From Chloracidobacterium thermophilum B (GTDB lineage: Bacteria; Acidobacteriota; Blastocatellia; Chloracidobacteriales; Chloracidobacteriaceae), in contig NC_016024.1 of assembly GCF_000226295.1 (NCBI RefSeq), positions 2,401,501 through 2,465,500 of the forward strand: DNA of 64,000 nucleotides, written 5' to 3'. Position numbers and translations under genes: made by a program. Under the pieces are notes generated by a model. That model worked only from the letters and a program-made list of their open reading frames with translations. It did not search any database and was not told the DNA's origin. This document shows, piece after piece, positions 8,076 through 27,324 of this stretch; the first letter of the stretch is position 1, and the number at the start of each line of letters is the position of its first letter.

Positions 8076-9284
8076 CTACGGAGACGTAGTGACGTAATCC
8101 ATCGTCTCCAGGTCACGGTCAGCGACATCCGGCTGTCCGAAGAACTTCAGCCACAGGAAGCCCACCGTGCCAGCCGTCAGCGAGGCCAGCAGAATGGTCA
8201 TTTTGGAAGCGCTCACGATCAGGGCATTGTCGGGAAAGGCCAGGTTCGTGATGAAAATGGACATCGTAAAACCAATGCCCCCCAGCAGCCCGGCGCCAAG
8301 CAGGTGTTTCCAGTTCAAATCCAGTGGCATCCGGCAGATGCCCAGCAGCACGGCCGCAATGCTGGCCAGAACAATACCGACCGGCTTGCCAATGAACAGT
8401 CCCACGAAAATCCCGACCCCGTTGGCGCTGGAGATAAGCGCAAGCACCCCCTGCTCGATGACAATGCCCGTATTGGCCAGCGCAAACAGCGGCATGATGC
8501 CAAAGGCAACCGGCCGTTGCAGCCAGCGTTCGAGCCGATGGGAAGGCGAAGTCTCATCCTCGCTTTTTTCCGTGAACGGAATGGCAAAGGCCAGCAGGAC
8601 GCCGGCTATCGTGGCATGAACGCCCGACTGGAACATACAGAACCACATGGCGATGCCACCCAGCAGGTAGGTCCACAGCGCCCTGATACCCCACCGGTTA
8701 AACATCAGCAGCACGACCAGAATGGCCAGCGTTGCGCCCAGGTAGCTCCAGGCCAGCGCCCCGGAGTAAAACAGGGCAATAACCACAATAGCACCCAGGT
8801 CATCAATTACGGCAAGTGCCGCCAGAAACACCTTGAGCGAACCCGGAACACGGTTGCCCAACAACGCCAGCACCCCCAAGGCAAAGGCAATGTCCGTCGC
8901 CATCGGGATGCCCATACCCGGCTGGGTGGCCGTGCCGTTGTTGAATGTGAAGTGAATGGTTGCTGGCACGACAATCCCACCCAGCGCCGCCACAATGGGC
9001 AACAGCGCGTGACGCAGGTTGGAAAGCTCGCCGACGTACAGCTCACGCTTGAGTTCCAACCCGATGAGCAGGAAGAAGACCGCCATCAACCCATCATTGA
9101 CCCAGACCTCGACCGGAAGCCCCGCCACCTTGACGTGCCAGGCATGCAGATAAGCGTGCCCCAGCGGCGAGTTGGCCAGAATGAGAGAAACCACCGTGCA
9201 GACCAGCAGCAGAACACCACTCGCCTGCTCGGACAGCAAAAACCGCTTAAAGGTCGGCGACAGTCGAATTTCGATGATGGGCAT
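8076..9284 (-). CDS. nhaA: Na+/H+ antiporter NhaA
   Basis: 402 residues from ATG 9284, chosen because GGAGGA lies seven bases upstream; the frame extends further upstream but without support. Eleven to twelve hydrophobic segments are evident. AVIDDLGAIVVIALFYSG contains the paired aspartates that bind Na+/H+ in NhaA (D163/D164 in E. coli), and the N-terminal ASGVLLLVCTVVSLILANSP is typical of the family. It exports Na+ in exchange for protons across the inner membrane. It follows nuoN by 81 bases in the same direction, so it may be co-expressed with complex I, which would make sense for ion balance. Confidence 0.92.
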   Translation of the reverse strand: MPIIEIRLSPTFKRFLLSEQASGVLLLVCTVVSLILANSPLGHAYLHAWHVKVAGLPVEVWVNDGLMAVFFLLIGLELKRELYVGELSNLRHALLPIVAALGGIVVPATIHFTFNNGTATQPGMGIPMATDIAFALGVLALLGNRVPGSLKVFLAALAVIDDLGAIVVIALFYSGALAWSYLGATLAILVVLLMFNRWGIRALWTYLLGGIAMWFCMFQSGVHATIAGVLLAFAIPFTEKSEDETSPSHRLERWLQRPVAFGIMPLFALANTGIVIEQGVLALISSANGVGIFVGLFIGKPVGIVLASIAAVLLGICRMPLDLNWKHLLGAGLLGGIGFTMSIFITNLAFPDNALIVSASKMTILLASLTAGTVGFLWLKFFGQPDVADRDLETMDYVTTSP

Positions 9285-24721: not shown

Positions 24722-25549
<828 letters not shown>

Positions 25550-25611
25550 TGACAGTTTTCCATTTTGGTCCAAGGTGCGGCCACCGGGAAATGCCCTGCG
25601 GGCCGGACTGT

Positions 25612-25624
25612 CTTGTAACACAAG
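25612..25624. promoter_or_regulatory. Short inverted repeat in a divergent promoter region
   Basis: CTTGT, three bases, ACAAG lies between the divergent SDR gene and the 40-residue membrane protein gene. It may be an operator, but five-base arms are weak evidence. Confidence 0.25.
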
Positions 25625-25724
25625 TGTCCGGCAAAAAGGGCGTCTTTCCTACGGATGGACTGTGTTAGCATGGGTTCAACAAGCGTCCCACACTTGAACA
25701 TTGCAAGTCATGGAGGGAGTCGCC

Positions 25725-25847
25725 ATGGAAGACATCAGCAAGGTTGCCTGGGCGTGGTTTGGGGTTTTGCTGGCAATTTGCCTGATCGGGGCTTTTGGTA
25801 ACTACGTGCCAAAGCTCTTCGTCAAAATGCTTATGTTTCTCAACTGA
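25725..25847 (+). CDS. 40-residue single-helix membrane protein
   Basis: ATG 25725 has a GGAGGG ribosome site seven bases upstream. The protein is 40 residues: an acidic start (MEDISK), one transmembrane helix (about residues 8-26, VAWAWFGVLLAICLIGAFG), then a short NYVPK linker and a second hydrophobic stretch. The two tryptophans at the helix start and the downstream basic residues suit a fixed membrane orientation with the N-terminus probably outside. It has its own terminator and stands just ahead of the phytol kinase gene. I do not recognise the family. A small subunit of a membrane complex, for example a photosynthetic reaction centre, is a testable idea and not a finding. Confidence 0.68.
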   Translation: MEDISKVAWAWFGVLLAICLIGAFGNYVPKLFVKMLMFLN

Positions 25848-25914
25848 GGCTTTTCCTTACCGGGGGCAACGCCTGTACAAAGGTTTGCCCGACCGGTACG
25901 AGTTCAGTAGGTTG

Positions 25915-25952
25915 AAGGCAGGTGGCACTGGCGTCCCCTGCCTTTTCCTTTT
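25915..25952 (+). terminator. Terminator or attenuator after the 40-residue protein gene
   Basis: Arms AAGGCAGG (25915-25922) and CCTGCCTT (25937-25944) enclose a 14-base loop and are followed by a T-rich tract. It lies 67 bases after the small gene and 17 bases before the phytol kinase ATG, so it should uncouple their expression levels. A smaller six-base-pair hairpin lies at 25864-25890. Confidence 0.65.
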
Positions 25953-25968
25953 GAAGTGAGTATGCGTC

Positions 25969-27324
25969 ATGGAAGTCTTCGATCCCGCCTGGCGTGCAGC
26001 GTCGCTGGCTGGCGCAGCGGACAGCTCGGAGATGCGCCGGCGGCTGGTGCATGTCGGTATGGGGATTTTCGCCCTGGCCGTCGTTTCGTTCTGGCAAACC
26101 CTGTTGATGGGGCTGTCCGGGTTGGCTCTGGCCTGGGTACTCCCCAAGTGGATGCCCAGCCTGCTCCGCCCGCATGAGCAGGCGCAGGGTTACTCAGTGG
26201 GCGTCATCGCCTACCCGGCAGCGGTAGTGGTGCTCACCCTGATCTTTCCGAAGGACCTGTGGGTTGTGGCCGGCGGCTGGGCCATGATGGCGTACGGGGA
26301 TGGCATGGCGGTGGTCTGTGGGCAGGGCATCCGCGGCCCGAAGCTGTGGTGGAATCCACGGAAAAGCCTCTTCGGAACACTGGGATTCATCCTGTTCGGA
26401 TGGCTGGGCACACTCGTCACAGTGCTCGTGGTAGGCGGCCATCCCTTCACGCCACTGGGACTCGCCCTGGTCATTCTGGCGGCCGCTGGCGTGGCAGCGC
26501 TGCTGGAGTCGCTGCCCTATGACATCTGCGACAATCCCCTCGTGGCCGGTTCGGCGGCTGGCGTGCTGTTCCTGGCCACCCAACTCGACTGGACGGCCTG
26601 GCAGGCCGCCCAGGCCGGCGTCCTTGCCCGGCTGCCCTTGGCCTTGGCGCTGGCCGTCGTTCTGGGGCTTGTCGCCCGCGCGACGAAATCCGTGGACTGG
26701 TCGGGGGCGCTCACCGGCGCCGGCTTTGCGCTGATCCTCTATGCAACGCTGGGCTGGCTGGGAGTGGGCGGACTCATGGCGTTTTTCATTGTCGGCACAG
26801 TCGCCTCGAAAATCGGCTATGAGAAGAAGCGCGCCAAGCGTACGGCGCAGGAAATCCGTACCTGGCGCAATGCCGTCGCCAATGCCGGCGTTGCGGCCTT
26901 GTGTGCCCCCCTGGTCGTCCTGACCCCCCACGCCGGACTCTTTACGGTTGCCGTCCTTGGCTCATTTGCGGCGGCGGCTTCAGACACCGTGGCCGGAGAA
27001 ATCGGCCGGGTCTATGGCGGCGTGCCCTACTCGATCACGACCTGGCGGCGCGCCCGGATTGGTGACAACGGCGCGGTGTCCGTCATTGGTCTGCTGGCCG
27101 GGTTGCTCACGGCCATTGCCTTTGGCGCGCTGGCCTACGCTGCCGCCGATGCCAATCTGCACCGGGCGGTCTGGTGCATTGCCATCGGGGGCATGGGCGG
27201 CAACCTGATGGACAGCCTGCTCGGCGCTACGGCCGAAAACGCCGGCTACCTGGACAACGAAGCCGTCAACTTCGTCTGCACGCTGTGCGGCGCGCTGCTT
27301 GCCGTTTTGCTTTTCGCGTTGTAA
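25969..27324 (+). CDS. Fused phytol kinase and phytyl-phosphate kinase (VTE5-VTE6 type)
   Basis: 451 residues, almost entirely hydrophobic. Residues ~20-215 form a CTP-dependent polyprenol/phytol kinase domain: MRRRLVHVGMG at the first helix, GDGMAVVCGQGIRG and WNPRKSLFGTLGF as the nucleotide-binding region. Residues ~225-450 match the DUF92 family (SDWSGALTGAG-type start, AAASDTVAGEIGRVYGG as its hallmark), the family of plant and cyanobacterial phytyl-phosphate kinase VTE6. In plants the two are separate proteins that turn free phytol into phytyl diphosphate for tocopherol or chlorophyll. Here both steps are on one inner-membrane polypeptide. Phytol specificity, as against another isoprenol, is inferred from the pairing. 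Confidence 0.8.
   Translation: MEVFDPAWRAASLAGAADSSEMRRRLVHVGMGIFALAVVSFWQTLLMGLSGLALAWVLPKWMPSLLRPHEQAQGYSVGVIAYPAAVVVLTLIFPKDLWVVAGGWAMMAYGDGMAVVCGQGIRGPKLWWNPRKSLFGTLGFILFGWLGTLVTVLVVGGHPFTPLGLALVILAAAGVAALLESLPYDICDNPLVAGSAAGVLFLATQLDWTAWQAAQAGVLARLPLALALAVVLGLVARATKSVDWSGALTGAGFALILYATLGWLGVGGLMAFFIVGTVASKIGYEKKRAKRTAQEIRTWRNAVANAGVAALCAPLVVLTPHAGLFTVAVLGSFAAAASDTVAGEIGRVYGGVPYSITTWRRARIGDNGAVSVIGLLAGLLTAIAFGALAYAAADANLHRAVWCIAIGGMGGNLMDSLLGATAENAGYLDNEAVNFVCTLCGALLAVLLFAL

Follow-up and report, generated by a model that had tools for sequence, protein, structure and literature searches.

The pscW gene of Chloracidobacterium thermophilum: assignment of a 40-codon frame to a small reaction-centre subunit, its probable start codon and its conservation within the genus

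We found that a frame of 40 codons in the genome of Chloracidobacterium thermophilum B (ATG at 25725, stop codon ending at 25847) is, with high confidence, the pscW gene, encoding a single-helix subunit of which two copies lie at the rim of the PscA homodimer in the type I reaction centre; its translation probably starts at the ATG at 25725, and its transcription probably begins at a promoter of its own and ends for the most part at a hairpin. PscW itself has been described before, in a solved structure, and what is added here is the position of its gene, a probable correction of its start site, its conservation within the genus, the gene order around it and its apparent absence from a sister genus that carries PscA. 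The window, by which we mean the whole stretch of 64,000 nucleotides that was analysed, covers positions 2401501-2465500 of contig C1 (2,683,362 bases) in a genome (G000) of 3,695,372 bases and two contigs. The features discussed below are, in window coordinates:

24722..25549, minus strand: divergent short-chain dehydrogenase gene (PRK08278 subfamily), in the same place in 7/7 genomes of the genus
25661..25671, plus strand: candidate promoter element TGTGTTAGCAT (TGTGNTANCNT), extended -10-like, in 7/7 genomes, with a putative role
25710..25724, plus strand: upstream in-frame ATG and four codons (MEGVA), the N-terminus of the 45-residue 7VZR chain, probably untranslated
25712..25717, plus strand: Shine-Dalgarno sequence GGAGGG, 7 bases 5' of the ATG, with GGAGG invariant in 7/7 genomes (alignment A2)
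25725..25847, plus strand: pscW (PscG in the PDB deposit), single-helix type I reaction-centre subunit of 40 residues (PDB identity, conservation in the genus, codon-position pattern)
25915..25946, plus strand: terminator-like hairpin separating pscW from the DUF92 gene (folding, conservation in 7/7 genomes)
25969..27324, plus strand: downstream neighbour of 451 residues with DUF92 in its C-terminal half (TIGR00297 below its cut-off), in the same place in 7/7 genomes

The assignment rests on a search of the 40 residues against all PDB chain sequences (E-values up to 10), in which the matches were two sequences only, both named PscG and each deposited as two chains: chain G of 7VZR (45 residues, all 40 residues of the window protein being identical from residue 6 on, E = 2e-23) and chain G of 7VZG (38 residues, 38/38 identical to residues 3-40, E = 6e-22). 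These entries are the two deposited cryo-EM structures of the C. thermophilum reaction centre, described as forms at 2.22 A and 2.61 A, with PscU, PscV and PscW as three new single-helix subunits in two copies each (Dong et al. 2022, PMC9751088). According to the same paper the three subunits were assigned by the fit of side chains to density, and PscW is physically present in the purified complex (PMC9751088). Lengths of 35, 36 and 45 residues have been given for PscU, PscV and PscW, the last with one transmembrane helix (PMC10968294). Because chain G of 7VZR has 45 residues and occurs in two copies, and the lengths of PscU and PscV do not fit, we infer that the PDB name PscG stands for the PscW of the literature. 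The main text of the structure paper gives no locus tag for PscW (its six mentions of 'Cabther' are locus tags of PscX, PscY, PscB and PscZ); sequences are listed in the supplement, where the locus may be published (PMC9751088). The genome itself also encodes PscA, as a match to PF00223 in a stretch that matches chain A of both 7VZG and 7VZR.

A sequence-only reading of this DNA had suggested a link between the small protein and the photosynthetic reaction centre and had proposed a comparison with the small subunits of the Chloracidobacterium structure; the hypothesis was borne out by the exact match to chain G in both entries. The features on which that reading was based (the 40-residue frame, the GGAGGG, two tryptophans and the downstream hairpin) were all present in the sequence, W9 and W11 standing at the beginning of the hydrophobic stretch. 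An AlphaFold model of the protein is a single helix over residues 2-39 (mean pLDDT 81.6, pTM 0.41). The frame at 25725 was the only one in the window to pass a filter for small membrane proteins (frames of 25-75 codons that follow a strong Shine-Dalgarno sequence, begin with ATG or GTG and contain a stretch of 19 strongly hydrophobic residues); two frames passed in the window and 17 kb around pscA combined, the second being a frame of 61 codons at 9008-9193 of locus L030. The 40 residues matched family models only weakly, namely TM_HPP in Pfam (E = 0.039, 14 bits where the cut-off is 27.2) and a lipoprotein signal peptidase model in NCBIfam (E = 0.0074, 15.6 bits against 321), both of which we take as chance matches of a hydrophobic helix. 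An unaided reading of raw sequence can thus single out a reaction-centre subunit of 40 residues.

The start codon deserves separate attention, for the true product might be the 45-residue form of the 7VZR entry, initiated at the ATG at 25710. The five extra residues are indeed present in that chain sequence, and alternative in-frame starts lie upstream in three other genomes of the genus (a GTG 2 codons upstream in G003, a TTG 5 codons upstream in G006 and an ATG 18 codons upstream in G002); the C. thermophilum genome has an additional in-frame TTG eight codons upstream. However, among the seven genomes an ATG at the place of 25710 occurs in G000 and G001 only, and two of the seven (G004 and G005) lack any ATG, GTG or TTG in the stretch that leads from the preceding in-frame stop codon (8 and 18 codons upstream, respectively) to the MEDIS start. 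The MEGVA codons moreover overlap the ribosome-binding site, so that the invariant GGAGG would itself have to code for the prefix, and the 7VZG chain sequence begins at D3. Both the MEDIS start and the GGAGG are invariant in alignment A2 of the seven genomes. Judged from these sequence comparisons, the ATG at 25725 is the better-supported start, and initiation at 25710 appears improbable. The probable correction is of relevance for tagging or deleting pscW.

It had also been proposed that the small protein is expressed separately from its neighbours. This is supported, though not proven, by the invariant ribosome-binding site and by a conserved promoter-like element and hairpin. The promoter-like TGTGNTANCNT starts 63-67 bases before the ATG in all seven genomes; a standard scan for sigma-70 promoters found none. 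The hairpin lies where it had been described, its first base 67 bases past the stop codon, and in each of the seven genomes it has the arms AAGGCAGG and CCTGCCTT, with a T-rich tail behind them. It is not a textbook terminator, because the T tract is interrupted by CC, and a simple terminator scan did not list it (one other site was listed, with 1.4 expected by chance). The predicted fold of 25848-25968, which includes the hairpin, had a z-score of -2.88, with 1 of 200 shuffled sequences folding as well. Covariation says little here, since the 11 stem pairs of the core are unchanged in all seven sequences and a single outer pair is changed on both sides. Transcription of pscW would probably start at a promoter of its own and mostly end at the hairpin before the DUF92 gene, and such termination would be expected to leave the DUF92 gene less strongly expressed than pscW.

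Two further non-coding elements were observed around the gene. Directly 5' of the hairpin, TTC(A/G)GTAGGTTG at 25903-25914 is invariant at 11 of its 12 positions in the seven genomes, and may lengthen the stem or bind something. A 20-base pattern of this element, allowing up to 3 mismatches, matched the C. thermophilum genome once, at its own site, as often as the reversed control (also one match); its 16-base core, allowing up to 1 mismatch, was found in all six sampled genomes of the genus and in none of three others, with one extra hit in G006 and one hit of the control pattern in G001. No credible Rfam family was matched over 25500-26100 (E = 0.37 and 0.42, for a microRNA family and a cancer-associated long non-coding RNA). 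Between the divergent genes, the short inverted repeat CTTGTAACACAAG at 25612-25624 is partly conserved, with full arms in G000, G001, G002 and G005, and may serve as an operator or belong to the dehydrogenase promoter.

The order dehydrogenase - pscW - DUF92 gene is kept in all seven genomes of the genus. The downstream neighbour had been described as a phytol kinase, and this is supported only in part: its C-terminal half belongs to DUF92 (E = 7e-47), a family that includes phytyl-phosphate kinases. For the N-terminal half no Pfam family was matched, and a solved relative of the protein was not found with E-values up to 1. In two genomes outside the genus (G008 and G009; frames of 238 and 251 codons) only the C-terminal half of the protein was matched, with the query aligned from residue 224, and in a third (G007) the match extended over nearly the whole length. 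Since G008 and G009 match the C-terminal half only and the N-terminal half has no Pfam match, the two halves look fused.

The constant neighbourhood could be read as a functional one, PscW then being a membrane protein that acts with the DUF92 protein in phytol or chlorophyll recycling and is bound to the reaction centre only incidentally. The conserved order of pscW and the DUF92 gene in 7/7 genomes is what speaks for this; PscW is, however, an ordered two-copy subunit in both deposited structures, its gene is separated from the DUF92 gene by the hairpin, and in a sister-genus genome that carries the DUF92 gene (66% identity) no PscW was seen 5' of it. We consider such a recycling role very unlikely.

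The gene was present in all seven genomes of Chloracidobacterium (93-100% identity to the window protein) and in none of seven other genomes of the order (E-values up to 0.1). Across the genus 36 of the 40 residues are invariant, and the variable alignment columns are distributed as 6, 1 and 25 over codon positions 1, 2 and 3. Pairwise dN was at most 0.049, with dS of 0.68-2.71 or at saturation; the exception is the pair of G000 and G001, which share one identical gene sequence. PscW is more conserved than both of its neighbours in the five species other than this pair (92.5-95% identical to the window, compared with 88.7-91.6% for the dehydrogenase and 81.0-84.7% for the DUF92 protein). Conservation in relatives had been named by the sequence-only reading as a check on the frame; the frame is kept throughout the genus, and its changes are mostly synonymous. 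That the frame is a chance one is practically impossible, being already refuted by the match to a chain of a solved complex and contradicted by the conservation and the codon-position pattern: the frame at 25725-25847 is a real gene. As a side observation, the open frame that holds PscA (L001, G000:C1:2586730-2587053) has 923 codons in C. thermophilum B vs 869-880 in the six remaining Chloracidobacterium genomes; the extra length is probably only open frame upstream of the start.

Of 162 genomes of the class, 8 had PscA (PF00223); a sample of 396 genomes from the phylum gave 3, all of which were already among the eight. Of these PscA-bearing genomes, 7/8 have pscW. Within the order, all seven genomes with a pscW match have PscA, and none of the six genomes without PscA has pscW (E-values up to 0.1). 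The eighth PscA-bearing genome (G007) belongs to another genus of the family and has the DUF92 gene mentioned above. In this genome no PscW was matched with a single sequence (E-values up to 0.1) or a profile (E-values up to 10), and inspection by eye of the listed frames of at least 25 codons near the 5' end of its DUF92 gene gave no look-alike. The locus concerned (L028, G007:C189) keeps the DUF92 gene, with an upstream region different from that in Chloracidobacterium. Absence of PscW from G007 is likely on these searches, though not certain in an assembly that is 90% complete and divided over about 1090 contigs, and PscW, if it was not simply missed there, may thus be dispensable in some PscA reaction centres. 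Five profile matches in G008, G009 and G010 (E = 0.3-4.2; frames of 466, 425, 202, 98 and 29 codons) were judged to be chance by their E-values. A wider scan of a contig collection with two short peptide patterns, by which distant relatives can be missed, confirmed three loci among 71 pattern matches, on the same contigs as G002, G004 and G005 and hence not independent; among viral contigs none of 25 pattern matches was confirmed.

With respect to function, the structure paper assigns PscW and PscV to regions I and IV, where they lie around helix 7 of one PscA and around helices 1, 2, 10 and 11 of the second copy; its authors suggest that the core is enlarged by the small subunits, which perhaps form an interface with other membrane proteins, and its section on pigments does not name PscW (PMC9751088). 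The most likely role is stabilisation of the PscA edge or formation of an interface there: the PscW helix would pack on PscA and stabilise the edge of the core, and would contribute to the surface that meets other membrane proteins or lipids, in the manner of low-molecular-weight photosystem subunits. A more specific scenario, which is speculative and in our view rather unlikely, is that PscW is an innovation of Chloracidobacterium, lacking in the sister genus that carries PscA, and marks the docking face for a genus-specific partner (e.g. the carotenoid-binding antenna protein), at a dose set by the conserved terminator, which uncouples pscW from the DUF92 gene downstream. With the present assignment, a subunit that was identified from density is tied to a gene, a start codon, a neighbourhood and conservation across a genus.

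Compared with known systems, the closest is the same protein: all 40 residues are identical to PscW of C. thermophilum (PscG in 7VZR and 7VZG), the difference being the five extra N-terminal residues in 7VZR, which conservation argues against. PscU and PscV are, like PscW, small single-helix subunits of the same complex in two copies each; no sequence similarity of these two to PscW was found, as only chain G was matched in 7VZR and 7VZG. The distribution of the three subunits has been likened to that of the small proteins of PSII (PMC9751088). We do not claim homology, as no solved PSI or PSII subunit was found similar in sequence to PscW among the PDB chains at E-values up to 10. The single-helix subunits of PSI and PSII, such as PsaI, PsaJ and PsbX, resemble PscW in consisting of a single short helix that lies at the core's rim.
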